64,000 nucleotides of DNA, taken from the NCBI RefSeq assembly GCF_000971475.1, contig NZ_DF967528.1, positions 1 through 64,000 of the forward strand. The letters are read 5' to 3'. Source of the DNA: Sulfuricella sp. T08. GTDB taxonomy: Bacteria; Pseudomonadota; Gammaproteobacteria; Burkholderiales; Sulfuricellaceae. The notes below the pieces were generated by a model. That model did not search any database and was not told the DNA's origin. It saw only the letters and a list, made by a program, of their open reading frames with translations. Of this stretch, positions 2,496 to 22,861 are shown one piece after another (within the stretch, counting starts at the first letter, position 1; each line of letters begins with the position of its first letter). Made by a program: the position numbers and the translations under genes.

Positions 2496-4517
2496 ATGTC
2501 TGGAACTTTTGGAAATCCTGAAGTAGTTCAAGAAGAAGTTGACATTCTTCTGATTGGTGGCGGTATGGCCTGCTGCGGCGCCGCCTACGAAATCATGCGC
2601 TGGGCTGACGCCGCCAAGGCCGAGTCCGGTATTGATCTGAAAATCAAGCTGGTCGACAAAGCCGCCATGGATCGCTCCGGCGCCGTGGCTCAAGGTCTGT
2701 CCGCGATCAACACCTACATCGGTGATACGCAGGATCCTGCGGATTACGCCCGTATGGTGTCCAACGACCTGATGGGCATCACCCGCGACGACCTGGCCTA
2801 CGATCTGGGCCGCGTTGTTGATGAGTCTGTCCACCTGTTCGAAGAATGGGGTCTGCCGATCTGGAAACTGGACGAAAACGGCGAGCGTCATGACGGCTCC
2901 GTCGACATGCCCAAGCTGAAAGACGGTGGCAAGCCTGTGCGTTCTGGCAAATGGCAGATCATGATCAACGGCGAATCCTACAAGTGGATCGTTGCTGAAG
3001 CCGCCAAAAAAGCCCTCGGTATGGATCGCATTCAGGAACGTATCTTCATCGTCAAACTGGTGAACGACAAGAACGATCCTAAACGCATCGCCGGTGCTGT
3101 TGGATTCTCCACGCGCGACCACAAAGTCATTGTGTACAAGTTCAAGGCCTGCCTGCTGGCTGCCGGTGGTTGCGTTAACCTGTTCCGCCCCCGTTCCGTT
3201 GGCGAAGGCCAAGGTCGTGCATGGTATCCAGTCTGGAACGCAGGTTCCACCTACTCCATGGCTGCCGAAGCTGGCGCTGAACTGACCATGATGGAAAACC
3301 GTTTCGTGCCTGCCCGTTTCAAAGATGGCTACGGCCCGGTCGGCGCTTGGTTCCTGTTGTTCAAGGCCCAAGCCGTCAACGCCAATGGCGAAGTCTACAT
3401 GGTTCGTAACAAAGAGATGCTGAACGACTACCCGCCCTATGGCCAAGCAGCCGTTCCTGCCTCCTGCCTGCGTAACCACCTGATGCTGCATGAGATGAAG
3501 GAAGGTCGCGGCCCGATTTACATGGACACCGTAACCGCTCTTGCAAAACTGCGCGAGACCCTTTCTCCACGCGAAGTGAAGCATCTGGAAGCAGAAGCCT
3601 GGGAAGACTTCCTTGACATGTGTATCGGCCAGTGCGGCGTCTGGGTGGGTGAGAACATCGAACCGGAGAAGAAGAACTCCGAATTGATGCCTACCGAACC
3701 CTACCTGCTCGGCTCCCACTCCGGTTGCTGCGGTATCTGGGTATCCGGTCCTGAAGATGTCGGCGCACCGACCTCCGAAGATCACGCAGACGCTGGCAAG
3801 ATTCCAGCTCACCTGCCAAGCGGCTGGAACTGGGGCTACCGCTCCATGACCACCGTCAAGGGTCTGTTCACCGCCGGCGACGGCGTGGGCGCATCCGGCC
3901 ACAAATTCTCCTCCGGCTCACACGCTGAAGGCCGTATGTGCGCCAAATCGATGGTCAAGTACTGCATCGACAACAAGGACTGGAAACCAGAACTGGATAC
4001 CTCTGCCGATGAACTCGTCGCGCAAATCTACCAGCCTGTGCGTAATTTCCTTGAGCACAAGGATTACTCAACAGCTATCGACGTGAACCCTAACTACATC
4101 ACGCCGAAAATGCTTCAGTTCCGCCTGCAGAAGATCATGGACGAGTACGTTGCTGGCGTTGCCACCTACTACACGACCAACGACAAAATGCTGGCCGTTG
4201 CTGAAGAGAAGCTGGGCATGCTGAAGGAAGACGCAATGAAGATGCGTGCGAAAGACCTGCACGAACTGTTGCGTGCATGGGAAAACTACCATCGCATCCT
4301 GACGGCTGAAGCTCACATGAAGCACATCCAGTTCCGCGAAGAATCCCGTTACCCGGGCTTCTACTACCGCATGGACAAGAACTTTGTCGATGAGGAAAAC
4401 TGGAAGTGTTTCGTGAACTCCGTCTACGACAAAACCACCCACAAGTGGACTGTGTTCAAGCGTAAGCATGTCGATATCGTCGACAAGTCCAAGCTGTTCA
4501 AGCCTGCCGCTCACTAA
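2496..4517 (+). CDS. aprA: Adenylylsulfate reductase, alpha (FAD) subunit
   Basis: This is the catalytic FAD subunit of APS reductase, forming a heterodimer with AprB. The 673-residue protein belongs to the fumarate reductase/succinate dehydrogenase flavoprotein family. Its N-terminal dinucleotide-binding motif is LLIGGGMACCG at about 18-28, and the conserved stretches RSGAVAQGLSAIN and SGSHAEGR are typical of AprA. Start codon spacing from GAAAGG is normal. A strong Rho-independent terminator follows, so sat-aprBA ends here. Together with Sat it gives substrate-level phosphorylation from sulfite. Confidence 0.95.
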   Translation: MSGTFGNPEVVQEEVDILLIGGGMACCGAAYEIMRWADAAKAESGIDLKIKLVDKAAMDRSGAVAQGLSAINTYIGDTQDPADYARMVSNDLMGITRDDLAYDLGRVVDESVHLFEEWGLPIWKLDENGERHDGSVDMPKLKDGGKPVRSGKWQIMINGESYKWIVAEAAKKALGMDRIQERIFIVKLVNDKNDPKRIAGAVGFSTRDHKVIVYKFKACLLAAGGCVNLFRPRSVGEGQGRAWYPVWNAGSTYSMAAEAGAELTMMENRFVPARFKDGYGPVGAWFLLFKAQAVNANGEVYMVRNKEMLNDYPPYGQAAVPASCLRNHLMLHEMKEGRGPIYMDTVTALAKLRETLSPREVKHLEAEAWEDFLDMCIGQCGVWVGENIEPEKKNSELMPTEPYLLGSHSGCCGIWVSGPEDVGAPTSEDHADAGKIPAHLPSGWNWGYRSMTTVKGLFTAGDGVGASGHKFSSGSHAEGRMCAKSMVKYCIDNKDWKPELDTSADELVAQIYQPVRNFLEHKDYSTAIDVNPNYITPKMLQFRLQKIMDEYVAGVATYYTTNDKMLAVAEEKLGMLKEDAMKMRAKDLHELLRAWENYHRILTAEAHMKHIQFREESRYPGFYYRMDKNFVDEENWKCFVNSVYDKTTHKWTVFKRKHVDIVDKSKLFKPAAH

Positions 4518-4544
4518 GTTAGTTGAGAATAGTTGTAGCAAGCT

Positions 4545-4699: not shown

Positions 4700-5611
4700 A
4701 TGATGGAAAATATTATCAATGAATCCCCCTTTGTCCCCAGCCCGGTTATACCAACCTCGTATGATGGCTCGAAGGTGATCCAGTTTCGTTGCCATAAGGA
4801 AATCGCCTGCTTCAACGCCTGCTGCAAGAATATCGACATCACCCTCACCCCCTACGACATCCTGCGCCTGAAGCGCAGACTGGATCTGACTTCGAGCGAA
4901 TTCCTGCTGGGCTTCACCGAACCCTACGAAATGGACAAGGACAGCATCGCCGGCGTCAAATTCAAGCCCGTAGAAGGCGGAACAGCATGCCAGTTCATGA
5001 CCGACGAGGGATGCAGCGTCTATGAAGACCGCCCCACTGCCTGCCGCTACTACCCCGTAGCGCTAGTCTCAATGCGTAAGCAAAACGAGAACACCGACAC
5101 ACATTCCTATGCCTTGGTTGAAGAAGCGCACTGCCTGGGACATAAGGAAAACCGTTCCCTGACTATCGACGAATATCGCCACGAGCAAGGCCTGGAAGAC
5201 TATGACGAACAAGGCCGCGGCTGGCGCCAACTGATCCTGAAGAAGAAATCTTCCGGCCCGACCGTCGGAACGCCCTCCAAGCGCAGCCTGCAATTGTTCT
5301 TCATGGCCTGCTACGATCTCGATCGTTTCCGAGATTTCGTCTTCAGCGATTCGTTCAACGAGGTGTACGATCTGCCCGACGACCTCAAGAAAACGCTTGC
5401 CGAGGACGAAATTGAACTGATGCAATTCGGCTTCCGTTTTCTCCGGCAGGTCATGTTCAGCGAAGAAAGCATTGCCGTGAAAGCCGACGCCTTTGACAAG
5501 CGCCTGGCAAAAAAACAGGAACGTGAGGCAGCGGGTCTTATATCCAGCGAACCGGCACCAGCACTTACTCCAGACTCACCCTACGACCACCCTGAGTGCG
5601 GTTGCGACTGA
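4700..5611 (+). CDS. YkgJ family cysteine-cluster protein
   Basis: The protein contains the cysteine pattern of the YkgJ family (putative Zn or Fe-S chelating): an N-terminal C-x5-CxxxCC-type cluster (CHKEIACFNACC), then CQF...GCSVYEDRP..CRYYP in the middle. The C-terminus ends in ECGCD. Two adjacent ATGs (4700, 4703) follow GAGG at good spacing; a TTG at 4676 is also open but has no ribosome site. It lies just upstream of the AAA+/vWA pair (9-nt gap) and appears to be in one operon with them. The precise function is unknown. Proximity to aprBA suggests a role in sulfur metabolism or cofactor handling, which is inference. Confidence 0.8.
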   Translation: MMENIINESPFVPSPVIPTSYDGSKVIQFRCHKEIACFNACCKNIDITLTPYDILRLKRRLDLTSSEFLLGFTEPYEMDKDSIAGVKFKPVEGGTACQFMTDEGCSVYEDRPTACRYYPVALVSMRKQNENTDTHSYALVEEAHCLGHKENRSLTIDEYRHEQGLEDYDEQGRGWRQLILKKKSSGPTVGTPSKRSLQLFFMACYDLDRFRDFVFSDSFNEVYDLPDDLKKTLAEDEIELMQFGFRFLRQVMFSEESIAVKADAFDKRLAKKQEREAAGLISSEPAPALTPDSPYDHPECGCD

Positions 5612-12984: not shown

Positions 12985-14511
12985 ATGACTACCATCCGTC
13001 AAGAAGACTTAATCGCCAGCGTCGCTGACGCACTGCAATACATTTCCTACTACCACCCCATCGACTACATCAAGGCGCTGGGAGAAGCCTACGAACGGGA
13101 GGCTTCTCCTGCTGCCAGGGACGCCATCGCCCAGATCCTCACCAACTCGCGCATGAGCGCGCAAGGCCACCGACCGATCTGCCAGGATACCGGCATCGTG
13201 GTGGCCTTCGTCAAGGTCGGCATGGACGTGCGCTGGGAATCGCAGATGAGCGTCACCGACATGGTCAACGAAGGCGTACGCCGCGCCTACCTGAACCCGG
13301 ACAACGTGTTGCGCGCCTCGGTAGTGGCCGACCCTGCCGGTACGCGCAAGAACACCCGCGACAACACCCCGGCAGTGATCCACTATGAGATCGTTCCCGG
13401 CGACAAAGTAGAAATCATCCTCGCGGCCAAGGGCGGCGGCTCGGAAAACAAAGCCAAATTCGTCATCCTCAACCCGTCGGACAGCCTCGTCGACTGGGTG
13501 CTGAAGACTGTCCCCACCATGGGCGCGGGCTGGTGCCCGCCGGGAATCCTGGGCATCGGCCTCGGCGGCACCGCGGAAAAAGCCATGCTGCTCGCCAAGG
13601 AAGCCCTGATGGAGCCGGTCGACATCCACGAACTGCAAGCGCGCGGGCCGCAAAACCGGGTGGAGGAACTGCGCCTGGAACTGTTTGAAAAAGTGAATGC
13701 GCTGGGCATCGGTGCGCAGGGACTGGGCGGCCTCACCACCGTGGTGGACATCAAGATCAAAGACTACCCGACCCACGCCGCCGGCCTGCCGGTCGGAATG
13801 ATCCCCAACTGCGCCGCCACCCGCCACATCCACTTCACCCTCGACGGCAGCGGCCCGGCCGTGCTGACCCCGCCCAATCTCGACGAATGGCCAAAAGTCG
13901 ACTGGCAGCCCGCCCCCGATTCACGCCGCGTCAATCTCGACGCCGTCACGCGCGAAGAGATCGCCACCTGGAAACCGGGCGAAGCCCTGCTCCTGTCTGG
14001 CAAGCTGCTCACCGGCCGCGACGCCGCCCACAAGCGCATCGCCGACCTGTTTGCCAAAGGGGAAAAACTTCCGGAGGGCGTGGATTTCAGCAACCACTTC
14101 ATCTACTACGTCGGACCCGTCGACCCGGTGCGCGACGAAGTGGTCGGCCCCGCCGGCCCCACCACGGCGACACGCATGGACAAGTTCACCGACATGATGC
14201 TGGATAAAACCGGCCTGATCGGCATGATAGGCAAAGCCGAGCGCGGCCCGGCAGCGATCGAAAGCATCAGGAAGCACAAGGCGGTTTACCTGATGGCGGT
14301 GGGCGGCGCGGCCTACCTCGTGGCCAAGGCAATCAAGGCTTCCAGGGTGCTGGCCTTCGCCGACCTGGGTATGGAAGCGATCTACGAATTCGAGGTCAAG
14401 GACATGCCGGTCATCGTGGCGGTGGACGCCAACGGCACGTCGGTGCATAAAACCGGACCGGCGGAGTGGCGCATAAAGATCGGCAAAATCCCAGTAGCCA
14501 AACATAATTAA
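12985..14511 (+). CDS. fumA: Fumarate hydratase, class I (iron-sulfur)
   Basis: This enzyme converts fumarate to L-malate in the TCA cycle using an oxygen-sensitive [4Fe-4S] cluster. The 508-residue single chain carries both alpha and beta parts of the family. Cluster cysteines are likely those in RPICQDTG, GAGWCPPG and IPNCAATRH. The beta part includes VGPAGPTTATRMD. The start at ATG 12985 is preceded by GGAGAG; a long open frame further upstream is antisense to the MBL gene and is not real. The stop codon overlaps the start of a repeat element. The gene is presumably monocistronic. Confidence 0.92.
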   Translation: MTTIRQEDLIASVADALQYISYYHPIDYIKALGEAYEREASPAARDAIAQILTNSRMSAQGHRPICQDTGIVVAFVKVGMDVRWESQMSVTDMVNEGVRRAYLNPDNVLRASVVADPAGTRKNTRDNTPAVIHYEIVPGDKVEIILAAKGGGSENKAKFVILNPSDSLVDWVLKTVPTMGAGWCPPGILGIGLGGTAEKAMLLAKEALMEPVDIHELQARGPQNRVEELRLELFEKVNALGIGAQGLGGLTTVVDIKIKDYPTHAAGLPVGMIPNCAATRHIHFTLDGSGPAVLTPPNLDEWPKVDWQPAPDSRRVNLDAVTREEIATWKPGEALLLSGKLLTGRDAAHKRIADLFAKGEKLPEGVDFSNHFIYYVGPVDPVRDEVVGPAGPTTATRMDKFTDMMLDKTGLIGMIGKAERGPAAIESIRKHKAVYLMAVGGAAYLVAKAIKASRVLAFADLGMEAIYEFEVKDMPVIVAVDANGTSVHKTGPAEWRIKIGKIPVAKHN

Positions 14512-14598
14512 CCGCTAAGGACGCAAAGGTGCGCGAAAGAAGGATATAGAATGTTTTTCCTTTGCGTTACCTTGCGTCCCTTGCGTCCCTTGCGGTAA
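14508..14598. repeat. Imperfect inverted-repeat element (CGCTAAGGACGCAAAGG type)
   Basis: ACCGCTAAGGACGCAAAGG at 14511-14529 is mirrored by CCTTGCGTCCCTTGCGGT at 14579-14596. A direct repeat of CTTGCGTCCC lies within the right arm. It fills the fumA to hydrolase gap completely and overlaps the fumA stop codon. It looks like a dispersed non-coding repeat. Copy number elsewhere cannot be seen here. Confidence 0.6.
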
Positions 14599-14602
14599 AA
14601 AA

Positions 14603-15481
14603 ATGCTTGAACCCGCCATCAAAAACACTCTCACCCTGCCGATGCAGGAGGTCTATTACCGCCTCTATCGCTACGACAGCGCACCCCCGCGCCGGCTTCT
14701 GCTGCTCCATGGCGGTGGCGTGGCGGGCAAGATCACTTGGGGCGGAATTCTCCCCCATTTAAAACACTGGAACGAAATCCTGGTCCCCGACCTGCGCGGC
14801 ACCGGCAAGACCCGCTACCCCGACCACAAGGAACACGGTTTCGAAGCCGAGGAAGTATTGGCCGACCTAGCTGCCCTGCTCGATCACCTGGCCTGGAGCA
14901 AATTCGACCTGGGCGGCTACTCTTACGGCGGAATGATCGCCATGCTGCTCAAAGCCGCCCGCCCGGCAGCGGTGGAAAAAACCTACCTGCTCGAACCCGC
15001 CCTGCTCGGCAAGATGAGCGACGAAGAATCCATCCGCTCGCGCGATTTGATCCTGCACGCCGCCAAGCGGCTGCGCGAGCTGGAAAACGTGGGGGAAGGA
15101 CTGGAACTATTCCTCGACGCCGTCGCCCCTAACCGCAGCCGCGGCTCGAAGAACGAGGAAATCATCCGCGAGAGACTGTCTCACCGCCCGGCAGGCCTGG
15201 CCTGCGCCATCGAGTGCGTCTCCCACGCTGCCAAACGTCTCGACCGTGCCGCCCTGATTGCCGCCCAGGCCAACGTCAGCAGCTTCATCGGCGGCCGCTC
15301 CCACCCTGCGGTTTACCAACTGTGCCAGAAGATAGCGGAGGGCAGGAACGACTGGGCCTGCCACCTGATCCAGGGCGCCGACCACGCCTTGCCGTTCCAG
15401 AAGCCGGAGGTCATTGCCGAATTGATGAACAAGGATATAGAAATATGTAGCCTGGATGCAGCGCAGCGGAATCCGGGTTAA
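14603..15481 (+). CDS. Alpha/beta hydrolase, C-terminus ending in a REP sequence
   Basis: A 292-residue alpha/beta-hydrolase-fold protein. The oxyanion region is LLLHGGG, the nucleophile elbow is GGYSYGG (Ser in GYSYGG), and the likely catalytic His lies in GADHALPF near the C-terminus. The substrate is unknown. The last 11 residues (CSLDAAQRNPG) are encoded by a REP element, so the original tail has been replaced or extended by the insertion. There is no good ribosome site before ATG 14603; the upstream sequence is a repeat. Confidence 0.82.
   Translation: MLEPAIKNTLTLPMQEVYYRLYRYDSAPPRRLLLLHGGGVAGKITWGGILPHLKHWNEILVPDLRGTGKTRYPDHKEHGFEAEEVLADLAALLDHLAWSKFDLGGYSYGGMIAMLLKAARPAAVEKTYLLEPALLGKMSDEESIRSRDLILHAAKRLRELENVGEGLELFLDAVAPNRSRGSKNEEIIRERLSHRPAGLACAIECVSHAAKRLDRAALIAAQANVSSFIGGRSHPAVYQLCQKIAEGRNDWACHLIQGADHALPFQKPEVIAELMNKDIEICSLDAAQRNPG
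15447..15477 (+). repeat. REP element, left flank of the RAYT gene
   Basis: GTAGCCTGGATGCAGCGCAG followed by CGGAATCCGGG. It matches the elements at 18651 and 24877 and is inverted relative to the copy at 16032. It overlaps the end of the alpha/beta hydrolase gene and lies 13 bases before the transposase start. Confidence 0.9.
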
Positions 15482-15490
15482 CATCCCACC

Positions 15491-16018
15491 ATGGTTCTCT
15501 ACCGCCGCAACCGCCTGCCGGGCGGAACCTTCTTTTTCACAGCAACCCTGCGTGACCGATCATCCCGTGTTCTGGTGGAACATATCGCCCCATTACGCGA
15601 AGCATTCCGCGCCGTTCGCCGCCTGCGCCCGTTCCATATTGACGCAATCGTAGTGCTTCCCGACCACCTTCACACCATTTGGACGCTGCCGCCAGGCGAC
15701 GACGATTTCCCCGGTCGGTGGCGCGCAATCAAGAGCGCATTCACCCGTTCGGTCGTAAAATCCGGCCTGACCGTCGCGCGCAACCGAAAAGGTGAATACG
15801 CGCTATGGCAACGACGTTATTGGGAACACACCGTCACTGATGACTTGGATTTTCAGCACCACGTGGATTACATCCATTTCAACCCGGTCAAACACGGCTT
15901 GGTGAAGCGTGTGGCGGATTGGCAGCATTCCTCTTTCCACCGTTACGTTCAACAGGGAATTCTTGTGCCTGAATGGGCGGGAACACCGGGAGAAGGTGGG
16001 GGAAATTTTGGGGAATAG
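15491..16018 (+). CDS. REP-associated tyrosine transposase (RAYT, IS200/IS605-like)
   Basis: A 175-residue Y1-HUH transposase. The HUH motif is D58-H59-L60-H61 (LPDHLHTIW), and the catalytic tyrosine is probably Y127 in the typical block DYIHFNPVKHG. RAYTs cleave and mobilise REP hairpins as single-stranded DNA and are usually domesticated single-copy genes. Here the gene sits exactly between two inverted REPs (15447-15477 and 16032-16063), the classical arrangement. The reading frame is intact and the length normal, so it may be active. Confidence 0.92.
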   Translation: MVLYRRNRLPGGTFFFTATLRDRSSRVLVEHIAPLREAFRAVRRLRPFHIDAIVVLPDHLHTIWTLPPGDDDFPGRWRAIKSAFTRSVVKSGLTVARNRKGEYALWQRRYWEHTVTDDLDFQHHVDYIHFNPVKHGLVKRVADWQHSSFHRYVQQGILVPEWAGTPGEGGGNFGE

Positions 16019-16031
16019 TCAGTTTTGGTAT

Positions 16032-16063
16032 CCCCGGATTCCGCTACGCTGCATCCGGGCTAC
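16032..16063 (-). repeat. REP element, right flank of the RAYT gene
   Basis: CCCCGGATTCCGCTACGCTG followed by CATCCGGGCTAC, the inverted copy of the left REP. The ATG of the J-domain remnant begins one base after it, so the insertion probably took the upstream part of that gene. Confidence 0.9.
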
Positions 16064-16219
16064 ATGCTGAGGCTCGCCGACCCGGTGGATGATCCGGAAA
16101 TCAAACGCCGCTACCGGGAACTGGCGATGGAACACCACCCCGACCGGGGCGGCGAAATGGAAAAACTTCAGGCCATCAACGCTGCCAAGGGGCTTCTGGA
16201 ACCGCTTCGGGGGCGGTAA
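16064..16219 (+). pseudogene. J-domain (DnaJ-like) fragment, 5' end probably lost to the REP/RAYT insertion
   Basis: The 51 residues from ATG 16064 hold helix II of a J-domain (IKRRYRELAMEHHPD), the HPD motif, the RGG that often follows, and helix III (EKLQAINAAKGLL). Helix I, normally of the type YxxLG, is nearly absent. The frame runs backwards into REP sequence (GYMLRLAD). No ribosome site is present. It may be a truncated remnant, or a small J-protein that uses this start. The first is more likely. Confidence 0.5.
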
Positions 16220-16312
16220 TGCCATGCCCTGGCCTGAAGGGCGGATACAGGCTGTGGCCCTTGAGTTCGCCGGCCTGCACGGTTTTTCGTGAAGTTGTCG
16301 TCCAGTGACGAA

Positions 16313-16954
16313 TTAGTGCTCAATCTCAAGCACATCAGACAGGTCTTGCTTGTATGCAGGATAACCAAGTTCTTTAGTGTTATCAGTCCAACCAAGGGCC
16401 GCAAGAACTGAATAGGAATGAAAGTGTTTGTCGCCATAGAGGTTAAATGAAAGGCCGTTCCCAGGGGCAGGCCACAGATTGTGTAGGTGGTTGAAGACAA
16501 CTTCGTTCAAGACGCTCAACCTTTTCTCGCCGAAATGGTTGTACTGATTCCGACCGGCGTACACGATCATGCCCATAGGCAGGTGACCTATGTCTCTACC
16601 AACGCAGAACTCTTCGGGTAGTAAAAAGGCCCGTTTTGAGCGAGCCTTGGGGTTTTCTTGTATTAGTCGATTGATCTCGGATTCGAAGTAAAGGGCGTTA
16701 TCGGACTTACCCTTGCGAACTGCATAGCGCTCTATGGCAACGTATGCGATCTGAAGGATTGAACCTGCGATTACTTCACGCGCTACGTCAGTGCTAGAGA
16801 AATTTTCCTTGTGTTTGTCGAGCTCTTCGCGCGTCCTTGATTTGGTTAATTCGACAAACGCTTGCATCTTGTGCCAACCATAACTGTTAAGTAACCTGAA
16901 GAGCCCCTCCGTCGCGGGAGCGGTGCTAGTCATGTATGAGTGCGCGCCTTCCAT
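16313..16954 (-). CDS. Unknown protein with a HEPN-like RX4H motif
   Basis: A 213-residue, mostly helical protein of unknown function. Codon use and base composition are AT-richer than the flanking genes, suggesting transfer. R135-N-Q-Y-N-H140 fits the RX4-6H signature, including the polar residue after Arg, found in HEPN ribonucleases of toxin-antitoxin and abortive-infection systems. The surrounding sequence (GRNQYNHFGEKRLSVLN) has the expected helix context. It begins two bases after the stop of the GIY-YIG gene on the same strand, so they are probably one transcript. A HEPN assignment needs structural support. The start at 16954 is uncertain (alternative 16933). Confidence 0.55.
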   Translation of the reverse strand: MEGAHSYMTSTAPATEGLFRLLNSYGWHKMQAFVELTKSRTREELDKHKENFSSTDVAREVIAGSILQIAYVAIERYAVRKGKSDNALYFESEINRLIQENPKARSKRAFLLPEEFCVGRDIGHLPMGMIVYAGRNQYNHFGEKRLSVLNEVVFNHLHNLWPAPGNGLSFNLYGDKHFHSYSVLAALGWTDNTKELGYPAYKQDLSDVLEIEH

Positions 16955-16956
16955 TT

Positions 16957-18421
16957 TTAATGCTTATGTTTGACGAGCTTGGGAAATAATTCATCCAGAA
17001 TTCCTTTGAGGCTCGCAGACCTATACCCTAGACCATACAAGCTTTTGAATTCCGATCGCGAGTGGCATTTTTTGGCAGCTTCCCGTACATTCGCCAGATC
17101 GTTCCAGAACCCCTTTGGTTTTTTAGCGGCAGGAATAAGAGCCATGCACTCTTCTAGGTACCCGTGATGTTTGGCATGTCGCCAAGCCCCGCTATATCTA
17201 CGATGAAACTCGCTGCGGCTCGATGAGTTTTTGGCCGCCTCTATTGATTTTGACTTGCTCCATTTCAGATCTTGGAGATCCTGTTCGTCACCGATAGACT
17301 TGTGGGCCCCGCCACCGCCCAGGCTTCCGCCAGCACCAAGCTTGGCAATGTTTAAAATAACATAGCCTCTTCTTCGGTAGCCTTCAGCTGTTTCTAGCTC
17401 CATTATCGGAGCTTTTTCCTTTGAGTAAAGTTCAGAGGATTCGATGAAGCGATATTTAACCCCAGCAAGAATCTTTTCTCTTATCAAGCTCGTTGCTAGA
17501 TTTTCGCTCGTGTTGTGCTCTGCGAGTTGCTAGGTTGAAGGTCAGGCCTATATAGACACTTTTGTCCTCAAATTCGATCGCATATATGCACCGCATGAAG
17601 TGGTTTCCGAGCCTCTTCATATGAGAGCATATTTCATCAATCACTCCCATTTCACAAGCCACTTTATATGCGCCGGGGCGAGTATCCATAAAATCTTTTC
17701 TGCTCACGTATTGGTTCGCTGCATTCTTCAAAGACGTCACATTCCACCCTTCGTTAGACGCCTCGATACCGATGTTATGAGCGACGCGCCCCTTTCTTGG
17801 GTCGGTCATGTGTGAAAAAAGCTCATCCCATTTATTTATCTTGATGGTCTCGTACCCTGTTCGAAATCGCTGGCGCATTTCAAGCTTGCTCTGGCATTCA
17901 AGCGCAGCAAGACAGCAGTTTTTATAATTATTCCAGTGTCCAGCAGGCCTGATCTTTCTATCAAAGGCCCAAAACACATCGTCCCAGTTATTCTCCTTGG
18001 CGGAAGACCACGCACCGAACGAGCCACTTCTGAATTCTTTGGCAGTCCTATATTTCGATGCCTCTGCCATTACATTTTCTTTGCTTTTCCACCGTAAAGA
18101 CATCGATCTAGGCCTGGACTCAAAATGCTCAAATACCTCCAACCAGTTATTCTGGAGCGCAATATTGTAGGCTTGGCGGGCCGCGAGTTTAAAGTCGTTT
18201 CTGTAACGATATTTTTTTGCTTCTGCCAATACGTTATTTATGTCGCTCCAGTAACCACGAGGTGTCAAATTAGCAAGATGGGGAAATATATCGTTTAGAA
18301 GGCCGTGCTTCTTTGCCCACCAATAAGCGCCGCCATGAGCTTCCTGAAATTCTGTCCTGCTGACAAAACCAGAAGTTAGCTCTATGAGCCCTGCAACAGT
18401 GTATTTTTCTTCTTTTTTCAT
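16957..18421 (-). pseudogene. GIY-YIG nuclease-like protein with repeated ~50-residue modules, frameshifted
   Basis: Two overlapping frames belong to one protein. The first (18421 to 17456) has about five modules of about 50 residues with the pattern GyW...N...A...yxsrxeFxxxxxxAYxxAxxxgWxdexFxHm, then the first half of a GIY-YIG domain (CIYAIEF...VYIGLTFNLATRR.QH). The second (open from 17529, ending 16957) continues it (YRFIESSELYSKEKAPIMELE, GYVILNIAKLGAGGSLGG), then two more modules. A one-base insertion, or a +1 shift, between about 17529 and 17460 joins them; the AAAA run at 17501-17504 is a candidate. The intact protein would be about 485 residues. Low GC suggests transfer. Sequencing error, inactivation and programmed shifting cannot be separated here. 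Confidence 0.75.
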
Positions 18422-18650
18422 GTCCCCGGTAACTATCAGAGATCCAAAAATACTAGGTCATCCTGACCCAATCTACATGCTTATAGCACTGAACTAGAAG
18501 TCGAGTTTTGCAGCAAGTGTTTGCCCACCGTAGCCAAATCGTAACTTCACATAAATATATCACCCTTAATATTGGGCTTTCTATGAATTTCCTTGAATCA
18601 TGCGGGTGATGCAAAGTTATGAATTAAAACTGATTAATATACTAGCAAGC

Positions 18651-18681
18651 GTAGCCCGGATGCAGCGCAGCGGAATCCGGG
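18651..18681 (+). repeat. REP element downstream of ftsK
   Basis: GTAGCCCGGATGCAGCGCAG followed by CGGAATCCGGG, identical in layout to the RAYT-flanking elements. It sits 7 bases past the ftsK stop. It marks the right border of the AT-rich accessory segment. Confidence 0.88.
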
Positions 18682-18688
18682 AAATGCC

Positions 18689-20995
18689 TCACTCCGCCCC
18701 CTTCACCAGCACCTCCCGATTCCCGTTGCTCTGCATCGCCGAAACCAGCCCCGCCTTTTCCATCTGCTCAATCAACCGCGCCGCGCGGTTGTAGCCGATC
18801 CTGAGCTGGCGTTGCACCAGCGAGATCGAGGCGCGGCGCGATTTGAGCACGAGCGCCACGGCCTGGTCGTACATCGGGTCGGATTCGGCGTCGCCGCCTG
18901 CTTCACCACCCTCGCCCTCGACGGCCACTTCCGGTGCATCGAGGATGCCTTCGACGTAATCCGGCGCGCCCAGCGCTTTCAGATACTCGACCACCTTGTG
19001 CACTTCGTGGTCGGCGACGTAGGCGCCGTGCACGCGCTGCGGGTAGCCGGTGCCGGGTGGCAGGTAGAGCATGTCGCCTTGGCCGAGCAGGGCTTCGGCG
19101 CCCATCTGGTCGAGGATGGTGCGCGAGTCGATCTTGCTCGACACCTGAAAGGCGACGCGGGTCGGGATATTGGCCTTGATCAAGCCGGTGATCACGTCCA
19201 CCGACGGACGCTGCGTCGCCAGCACGAGGTGGATGCCGGAGGCACGCGCCTTCTGCGCCAGACGGGCGATCAGCTCCTCAACCTTCTTGCCGACCATCAT
19301 CATCATGTCGGCCAGTTCATCGATCAGCACCACGATGAAGGGCATTTCCTCCAGGGGTTCGGGGGCGTCCGGCGTGAGGCTGAAGGGGTTGGGCAGCTTC
19401 GCTCCGGATTTCTCCGCTTCGCGCACCTTCTGGTTGTAACCGGCCAGGTTGCGCACGCCCAGCGCCGACATCAGACGGTAGCGCCGCTCCATCTCGGCAA
19501 CGCACCAGTTGAGCGCATTGGCGGCGTGCTTCATGTCGGTCACCACCGGCGCGAGCAGGTGGGGAATGCCTTCATAGACGGATAGCTCGAGCATTTTCGG
19601 GTCGACCAGGATCAGCCGCACCTTGGAGGGATCGGCCTTGTAGACCAGGCTCAAAATCATGGCGTTGATCGCCACCGATTTACCCGAGCCGGTAGTGCCC
19701 GCCACCAGCACGTGCGGCATTTTTCCCAGGTCCGCCACCACCGCCTTGCCGGCGATGTCCTTGCCCATGGCAATGGTGAGCGGCGAGGCCATGTCGGCGT
19801 AAACCTTCGAGCCGAGAATCTCGCGCAGTCGCACCACCTGCCGCTTGGGATTGGGGATTTCCAGCCCCATGCAGTTTTTGCCAGGGATGGTCTCCACCAG
19901 GCGGATGCTGACCACCGACAGGGCGCGCGCCAGATCCCTGACCAGGTTGGTGATCTGGCTGCCCTTCACGCCCACCGCCGGCTCGATCTCGTAGCGCGTG
20001 ATCACCGGGCCGGGATAGGCGGCGATGACTTTTACCTCGACGCCGAAATCGGCCAGCTTGCGCTCGATCAGGCGGGAGGTGTATTCCAGGGTATCCGGGC
20101 TGAGCGTTTCGGTATCGGCTTCCGCTTCATCCAGCAGGTTCAGTGGAGGCAAAGGTGAATCCGGCAAGTTATCGAACAGCGGAGCCTGCACCTCGCGCTC
20201 GGTGAGCGGAACCTGGGGGATGCTTATCTGCGGCTGCTCGATGTGGACCGGCTTGTGGTCATCGACCCGCTTTTTCTCTTCCACCACTTCCTCGCGCTTG
20301 TTCAGCGCCACCGAACCGGCGCGCCGGTCCTGCCAGGCATCCCAGGTCTTGATGATCCACAGGTAGCTGTTTTCCATGGCGGCGCCGAGGCCTTCCATGA
20401 ACTTCAGCCACGACATGCCGGTGAACAGGCTGAAGCCCACCGCCATGCTCAGCAGCAATATCAGCGTGGCACCGGTGAAGCCGATGTGAGTAGCCAGATA
20501 GGTGCTGACCACCGATCCGATCATCCCTCCCGGCGCAAGCGGAAGGGCGGTTTTAAGGCTGTACAGACGCAAAGCTTCCAGGCCACTGCTGGCAAACAGG
20601 AGAATGAAAAAACCGGTGGCTGCAACGAACAGCGAGCGCCGGTCGGACGAGCCCGCGCTTTCAATGCGCCGGTAGCCCCACCAGACCACATACAGGGAAA
20701 ACACCACCCACCAGTAGGCTGAAAAACCGAAGACATAAAGCAGCATGTCCGCCAGCCAGGCGCCCACCTCGCCGCCGGTATTGCTAACGGTCAGCCTGCT
20801 GCCGCTGTGCGACCAACCCGGGTCGGCATGGTCGTAGCTGAACAATACCAGCGTCAGATACAGGGCCAATACCACCACCGCCAGCCAGCGCGCCTCGCGG
20901 AGCAAGCCGGACAATTTCGGCGAGAGCGGTTCGGGGGGAGCCCGGCGGTTCGAGCCCCGCGTATTCAGGGAGGAATGCTTATTCAGAAAGGCCAT
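18689..20995 (-). CDS. ftsK: DNA translocase FtsK
   Basis: This is a septum-located motor that pumps chromosome dimers and termini to dif, where it activates XerCD. It has 768 residues. The N-terminal membrane part has about four helices (residues 35-190). The short Pro/Glu linker (about 225-310) is followed by the RecA-like motor with Walker A GTTGSGKS and Walker [13 protein letters not shown]. The C-terminal gamma winged-helix domain ([24 protein letters not shown]) binds KOPS. It is shorter than E. coli FtsK because of the compact linker, as in many betaproteobacteria. It is divergent from trxB. Confidence 0.95.

Positions 20996-22861
<1,866 letters not shown>

Follow-up and report, generated by a model that had tools for sequence, protein, structure and literature searches.

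The minus strand of the window (the 64,000-nt stretch of Sulfuricella sp. T08 DNA analysed here) carries, from 18421 to 16957, a split member of a phage nuclease family, whose repeated module has no description in any library searched. Five modules are followed by a GIY-YIG domain and two further modules, in two overlapping frames. The best explanation, held with moderate confidence, is that a mobile endonuclease of the homing type, which would bind DNA through an array of modules, was captured in the chromosome and was either broken there or mis-sequenced. The ancestral protein would have bound DNA, cleaved it and homed, and the present copy has presumably lost its function.

A GIY-YIG nuclease domain spread over two frames

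The Pfam family PF01541 (GIY-YIG) matches residues 278-315 of ORF1 over profile positions 3-41 of 78 (22.7 bits; cut-off 22.6), and ORF2 by itself has no PF01541 match in the Pfam search. A nuclease profile built from the relatives, with seed linkers taken from the family ORF survey, matches ORF1 at profile positions 2-42 and ORF2 at positions 47-98, so a single nuclease domain spans both frames. The conserved GIY-YIG residues (Tyr, Tyr-x-Gly, Arg, Glu and Asn) are present in the window, distributed over the two frames; the corresponding Tyr, Tyr, Gly, Arg, Glu and Asn are found in 99-100% of the nuclease domains of up to 88 distinct relatives. By profile, by conserved residues and by the fold of an intact relative (L009), the gene belongs to the GIY-YIG superfamily. 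The first-pass annotation had recognised a GIY-YIG nuclease-like domain, which both profiles confirm, and had placed a frame change inside it at 17440-17530, where the two frames indeed overlap (17459-17529). The minus-strand orientation and the following ORF were not part of that annotation. Intact homologues were sought and found, for example L009 with two modules on either side of the nuclease. The host genome holds no second copy of the split gene (assembly of 78 contigs, rated 100% complete; the window lies in contig 70).

Table 1. Features of the split nuclease gene and its surroundings in the window.
Feature	Position	Strand	Remarks
ORF1	17456..18421	(-)	321 aa; five modules and the N-terminal part of the GIY-YIG domain
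ORF2	16957..17487	(-)	176 aa from TTG, frame open from 17529; C-terminal GIY-YIG part and two modules
Stretch open in both frames	17459..17529	(-)	ORF1/ORF2 frame overlap; frame change inside
GIY-YIG domain, first part	17492..17614	(-)	CIY, YIG and Arg motifs
GIY-YIG domain, second part	17323..17478	(-)	catalytic Glu and LN motif
Module 1	18275..18406	(-)	27.3 bits; 25.3 with window rows removed
Module 2	18125..18253	(-)	37.3 bits; 36.4 with window rows removed
Module 3	17969..18091	(-)	33.3 bits; 31.7 with window rows removed
Module 4	17807..17938	(-)	most diverged; 24.0 bits; 19.7 with window rows removed; 3.8 with seed profile
Module 5	17618..17746	(-)	45.6 bits; 42.2 with window rows removed
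Module 6	17140..17265	(-)	30.3 bits; 25.4 with window rows removed
Module 7	16981..17109	(-)	24.7 bits; 22.8 with window rows removed
Following ORF	16313..16954	(-)	213 aa, directly after the nuclease gene; possible partner gene
RAYT (REP-associated tyrosine transposase)	15491..16018	(+)	NF047646, 190.7 bits (cut-off 80); adjoins the island, outside the gene
REP-like element, island edge	16033..16063	(-)	31-nt copy, inverted
REP-like element, far island edge	18651..18681	(+)	inverted relative to the copy at 16033

Both halves of the gene are long and open and retain the conserved residues. These features would suit a gene that is intact in the organism: its frame change would then stem from faulty sequencing or assembly, or slippage would bridge it. 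Such a gene is compatible with the other readings. A second member of the family is split at a run of nine A (L114-L120 and L123, eight identical viral contigs, at about 4520-4540), where slippage is conceivable and could in principle still give a whole protein. However, other members (L114, L109 and L099) are likewise split within the nuclease or directly behind it, and the available text of one study reports frameshifts as common in phage homing genes, names stops and deletions in them as well and describes decay as typical of them (PMC10448857). An intact gene is a substantial possibility, which we rate as less likely than not.

Seven copies of a repeated module flank the nuclease

The modules are about 44 residues long. 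Five were detected in ORF1 (19.7-42.2 bits) and two in ORF2 (25.4 and 22.8 bits) with a profile from which the window rows had been removed, the earlier rounds of which may have contained such rows. The first seed profile, which was fully free of the window, detects the same seven modules, module 4 weakly (3.8 bits). Among 2000 shuffled sequences (1000 per ORF), the top single match scored 12.7 bits and none reached at least 15 bits. The repeats seen by eye at first pass, five before and two after the nuclease, therefore align in a profile search. Seven positions are conserved at 77-98% (Trp 2, Tyr 14, Phe 20, Ala 27, Tyr 28, Trp 36 and His 43), and the mean net charge per module is +2.5 (360 distinct modules).

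The predicted model of the intact relative L009 has a mean pLDDT of 83.9 but a pTM of 0.39 (13 aligned sequences), so that the individual parts can be trusted and the way they are placed relative to each other cannot. The catalytic domain of this model superposes on I-TevI with a Z score of 10.2 and an rmsd of 2.3 Å over 85 aligned residues, followed by T4 EndoII (Z 6.5), UvrC (6.2-6.4) and 1ywl (3.7), with all remaining rows at or below 2.8. I-TevI is also top-ranked by Foldseek, yet with an E-value of only 0.076. Against viral predicted structures, the L009 model gives three matches at E ≤ 0.001, one of which is the relative in phage BcepSauron. In both the L009 model and the ORF1 model (pLDDT 70.2, pTM 0.26), the modules are predicted to form four short helices. 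With the whole ORF1 model as query, Foldseek returned nothing at E ≤ 0.001 and VIA-align 2 nothing above Z 2.8. No known fold was recognised over the module ranges (Z at most 2.8), which is weak evidence with whole models as the only queries. Single modules also gave weak matches to ribosomal-protein chains (Z 2.1-2.4), which were discounted because such helical arrangements are common.

The window modules have no DNA-binding family among the Pfam matches of the two gene pieces at E ≤ 10. The tandem DNA- or protein-binding array of the first-pass annotation stands as a modular array, and DNA binding is suggested by the charge, the predicted helices and the pattern of variation. This step is kept conditional because neither a Pfam DNA-binding family nor a useful fold match was obtained for the module.

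A largely phage-borne nuclease family

The two window pieces match phrog_20046, a PHROGs cluster of 'unknown function', at 2.4e-38 and 4e-17. No mention of this name was found in a full-text literature search, and a literature search recognised no description of the module, an absence that is not proven. The relatives comprise 24 phage records and a plasmid record from Vibrio campbellii. In viral contigs, searched in one alignment scan, 137 of 200 candidate stretches were confirmed, and the best 80 of the 137 were kept and represent 78 loci. Among bacterial and archaeal genomes, 25 candidates yielded eight confirmed members; two are from Chryseobacterium strains and the other six are from MAG or uncultured records. 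A scan of viral contigs with ORF1 as the query confirmed none of its three candidate stretches, so the window copy is distant in sequence from its phage relatives.

Architectures were surveyed in 88 distinct ORFs, almost all of phage origin. Redundancy was removed only where one sequence was exactly contained in another, and the set takes in both window pieces, split-gene halves and ORFs truncated at contig ends. Modules lie on both sides of the nuclease in 67 of these ORFs, only before it in nine and only after it in six, and the last six have no nuclease by the relatives' profile. A nuclease between two module arrays, which had been called an unusual layout, is consequently the rule among relatives within an existing phage cluster. 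The exact arrangement of five plus two modules also occurs in L112, L113 and L121, which are close to each other and count as roughly one case.

One relative (P0006) also matches phrog_314, annotated as 'homing endonuclease', at 1e-6 over nuclease and modules, and another (P0003) has a T5orf172 match below the cut-off (E 0.13). The window pieces have no Pfam match to T5orf172 or DUF723, and NUMOD families are absent from the window pieces (E ≤ 10) and from six relatives (E ≤ 1). Repeat-rich relatives score highly against the Pfam families Insulin and SusF_SusE, an effect that we attribute to their repeats and discount; neither family matches the window pieces. An insert in the relative G005 was considered as a known nuclease and dropped, with no Pfam family at E ≤ 0.001.

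Several architectures depart from the common one. A protein of the Burkholderia phage BcepSauron (L007, 2950-3855) joins four modules to a MUG113 domain, which is GIY-YIG-like; judged from such sequences, module arrays seem to have been swapped between nuclease types. Arrays in which no nuclease was recognised occur in Vibrio campbellii (L008, 2821-3756; six modules) and in a 308-kb viral contig (L110, 3935-5080; seven modules), where the adjoining gene looks primase-like by eye. In the two Chryseobacterium proteins (L156 and L157), a zinc-ribbon-like CxxC...CxxC stretch lies at the N-terminus of the nuclease, ahead of the modules.

Presence and array length vary at one phage site

Vibrio phages of the Schizotequatrovirus group offer a set of loci with the same flanks. 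ValKK3 lacks the gene and has about 100 other bases in its place. A single copy is present in phi-Grn1 (2+3 modules before and after the nuclease), R10Z (4+2), XZ1 (3+3) and phi-ST2 (1+2), and two tandem copies are present in R11Z and Va3 (3+3 and 2+3); VH1_2019 has one copy (3+2) in a related region. Overall, one to four modules precede and two to three follow the nuclease at this site. KVP40 and phi-pp2 have small genes there, and the one checked in each has no module. The gene is therefore present or absent at a syntenic site among close phages (ValKK3 versus R10Z, phi-Grn1, XZ1, phi-ST2, R11Z and Va3). In the available text of the genome paper on phi-Grn1 and phi-ST2, the section on homing endonucleases names other genes and not these (PMC5107563).

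Presence and absence, together with the variation of module number at one site, make a homing-type gene, as was first proposed from the window alone, the best reading of the phage relatives. The alleles at the Vibrio site carry different letters at the variable columns of the module, and a single conserved homing target fits poorly for that reason; if the columns read bases at all, these differences may speak for diversified rather than fixed targets.

The Vibrio phage copies are bounded, by eye, by a short repeated terminator-like hairpin (in L004 at about 1225-1275, 2515-2565 and 3655-3705), and this hairpin could be a site at which cassettes recombine. Elsewhere, two viral contigs with 99.98% identity over 5092 bases are distinguished by one exact repeat of a 147-base module (L016, 5201-5410; L018, 5030-5239). 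Arrays thus appear to change by whole modules, unless assembly collapsed a repeat.

The chromosomal copy lies in a variable interval

The gene lies in an AT-rich island. The GC content is 44-49% in 500-base windows starting at 16250-18250, compared with 57-67% at 13000-16249 and 59-67% at 18750-20999; dips occur elsewhere too (46% at 21000-21499). REP-like elements bracket the island (Table 1), and a third 31-nt copy lies at 15447. A degenerate form of the element occurs seven times in the genome, and its reversed control does not occur. The AT-rich composition and the position between REPs (15447, 16033 in inverted orientation, and 18651) that had been noted at first pass were both recovered. 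No Rfam match at gathering scores was found within 15000-19000, and no phage gene was found among the ORFs of 14000-21500.

A comparison of 16019-16258 with a genus relative (L149, 4515-4895) gives a whole J-domain gene in the relative, of which the window seems to keep the last part only; a REP element sits at the broken end of this remnant. On the other side, ftsK (18689-20995) was matched in all 12 genus genomes searched, the host included, in some of them partially. The module-nuclease gene is absent from the other 11 genus genomes searched, some of which are incomplete. In the seven of these 11 whose interval beside ftsK was compared, nothing aligns to 16259-18642 at E ≤ 1e-5: both edges align in L148, L149 and L153, with different DNA between them, the upstream flank and ftsK align in L150 and L152, and only ftsK aligns in L151 and L154. 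A clean empty site was not found for the window locus; other DNA fills the interval wherever both edges align in the relatives. Different accessory genes occupy the interval in L148 (5199-6251), L149 (5244-6908) and L150 (4712-6238), and the last includes a T6SS Tle1-like phospholipase domain.

A protein search of 22 family genomes found the gene in the host genome only, and phrog_20046 was found in one of 398 phylum genomes, again the host, and in none of 14 control genomes. Because of these own-only occurrences and the lack of alignment of the interval in relatives, the gene is rare among sampled bacteria and probably a recent arrival in a variable interval. Its acquisition, proposed earlier, agrees with the AT-rich, REP-bracketed setting and with its absence from the other genus genomes searched, incomplete ones among them.

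Neighbourhoods of the bacterial copies

The first-pass annotation had offered a defence nuclease as an alternative to a homing-type gene. According to this alternative, the arrays of the bacterial copies would direct the GIY-YIG domain to phage or plasmid DNA for cleavage, perhaps together with the following 213-aa protein. TIR, HEPN or PIN genes adjoin three of the six bacterial loci that have flanks on both sides (eight loci in all), a count from 15 chosen neighbours scanned without control neighbourhoods. In L155, a TIR/DUF1883 gene adjoins the nuclease gene and an AAA_21 and DUF4276 pair lies further on; in L158, a nucleotidyltransferase and HEPN pair lies just upstream, with a RES-domain gene; in L161, a PIN gene lies just upstream, with an AAA_21 gene and a DUF4276 match below the cut-off. 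A neighbour in L162 has a DUF5677 match below the cut-off. The interval beside ftsK, which holds different genes in the relatives, would also suit such a role.

The following ORF has no family above the cut-off in Pfam or PHROGs, no PADLOC family at E ≤ 0.1 and no match among phages or plasmids. It has one relative besides itself in 274 class genomes and none besides itself in 399 order genomes. The pair shares 27% identity (E 8e-17 as a pair) and a GRNxYNH stretch, an R-x4-H pattern that resembles the HEPN motif, and the relative adjoins a Schlafen AlbA_2 gene, which may again point towards defence.

However, the PADLOC search of the window pieces gave nothing at E ≤ 0.1, and the two weak matches among relatives (PDC-S70 at 7e-4 and PDC-S14 at 0.006) include no single stretch that passes. 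The Chryseobacterium locus L156 carries a tyrosine integrase and DUF4365, as does L157 by its translations, L160 (flank on one side only) has housekeeping-like genes by eye, and most members found are from phages. A defence nuclease is suggested by the neighbourhoods of three bacterial loci and not by the PADLOC search of the window pieces, and it stays in contention as a rather unlikely alternative. The preferred reading of the window copy is still a captured homing-type endonuclease.

In L155, an attC-form hairpin (4923-4993) separates the TIR gene from the module-nuclease gene, a possible integron cassette. A broad integron reading of this locus was set aside, with one attC-like site only.

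Variable positions of the module

Across the 360 distinct modules, the entropy is highest at columns 18, 21, 25, 29 and 32. In the L009 model, columns 18 and 21 lie on helix 2 and columns 25, 29 and 32 on helix 3, with a spacing of 3, 4, 4 and 3. In 196 nearest-neighbour module pairs, pN/pS is 1.08 for these five columns, 0.19 for the core and 0.50 for the other columns, and in the 33 closest pairs it is 0.81 (below 1), 0.14 and 0.26, respectively; the columns were chosen on nearly the same data, and the modules and pairs compared are related rather than independent. Held-out splits are the fairer tests. With one half of 100 arrays used to select the columns, these five came up in 48-50 of 50 splits, and in the held-out half they hold 28.9-29.0% of the differences between similar modules within proteins, compared with 11.4% for 44 uniform columns; the five columns that rank next account for 15.5%. 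If the comparison is confined to the 22 most variable columns, the share of the five is 37.9%, compared with 22.7% under equal shares. The set is not sharply bounded, because columns 26, 30, 33 and 42 differ about as often as columns 18 and 25 in within-protein pairs (n=65).

This pattern fits DNA-reading surfaces, although unconstrained exposure would also give high values. The modules might instead bind RNA or protein or merely space the nuclease, with the variable columns being ordinary exposed positions. Such a role would agree with the lack of a DNA-binding family or fold match for the modules, with the arrays in L008 and L110 and with the high variation of columns 26, 30, 33 and 42 within proteins. 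Against it, the modules are positively charged, and the five columns recur on the same face of two helices and, in held-out arrays, hold more of the differences than the columns ranked after them (29.0% versus 15.5%). In addition, GIY-YIG homing endonucleases bind DNA via beads-on-a-string modules, according to the available text of PMC2988022. We consider a role without DNA binding quite improbable, and DNA-binding arrays remain the preferred reading.

The sequences display a few hypervariable positions per conserved module, as in TALE repeats, with the reservation on the bounds of the set given above. A more far-reaching and rather doubtful proposal is a naturally reprogrammable nuclease. 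In this proposal, the modules would read DNA by a code on columns 18, 21, 25, 29 and 32, the arrays would grow and shrink by whole modules, and the GIY-YIG domain would cut between two programmable arms; phages would diversify the code at one site instead of keeping one fixed target, a view prompted by the alleles of the Vibrio phages.

Proposed mechanism and comparison with known systems

Before the split, the gene would have encoded an endonuclease of roughly 480 residues, in which five positively charged modules of four predicted helices precede an I-TevI-like GIY-YIG catalytic domain and two follow it. Most probably both arrays contact DNA, one on either side of the cleavage site. A single module may read a short DNA stretch via a few exposed positions of its second and third helices, and the target would be set by array length and by the variable positions. 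The phage copies appear to behave as a free-standing, homing-type mobile gene. The copy described here would have entered the variable interval between ftsK and the J-domain gene, adjoining REP/RAYT sequences, and would now be split, or mis-assembled, within its catalytic domain.

The window copy is a minor, split example, and the interest lies in the family, whose variable columns make a recognition code testable. If the mechanism is correct, the phage cluster filed as unknown (phrog_20046) would gain a function. If the modules read DNA by a code, the family would offer a modular DNA-binding scaffold that is carried by phages and already includes a nuclease. No sequence relation to known DNA-binding repeats was found, and the many natural alleles would allow the code to be deduced.

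Among known systems, I-TevI and the T4 Seg proteins, free-standing GIY-YIG homing endonucleases, are among the closest in kind. The catalytic fold of I-TevI is predicted in the intact relative L009 (Z 10.2), the DNA-binding parts of such enzymes are arranged as beads on a string (PMC2988022, available text), and the phage relatives are likewise free-standing, intergenic and present or absent at one site in close phages. In contrast, the binding part of I-TevI lies on one side of the nuclease and consists of zinc-finger and HTH elements, as described in the same text, whereas here a module with no Pfam match is repeated on both sides and homing is proposed from the phage loci.

Homing-type genes that combine T5orf172 with repeated CapR/DUF723 zinc fingers likewise encode a GIY-YIG superfamily nuclease with binding domains in several copies; their repeats are gained and lost by recombination, and frameshifts are frequent (PMC10448857, available text). 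They differ in their nuclease subfamily and in the zinc-finger nature of the repeats. In the architectures displayed in that text, nuclease and binding domains lie at opposite ends of the protein, whereas the nuclease is central here (PMC10448857). The window pieces themselves match phrog_20046, which is a sequence cluster with no described function.

TAL effectors and PPR proteins are modular codes, in which repeated helical modules share a similar scaffold and differ at few positions each. The module family resembles them in its repeated, predicted helical modules with few variable positions per module. Unlike these proteins, to which no sequence relation is claimed, the hypothetical code would here be written in a longer module (44 residues plus linker) and carried by a protein with a built-in nuclease.
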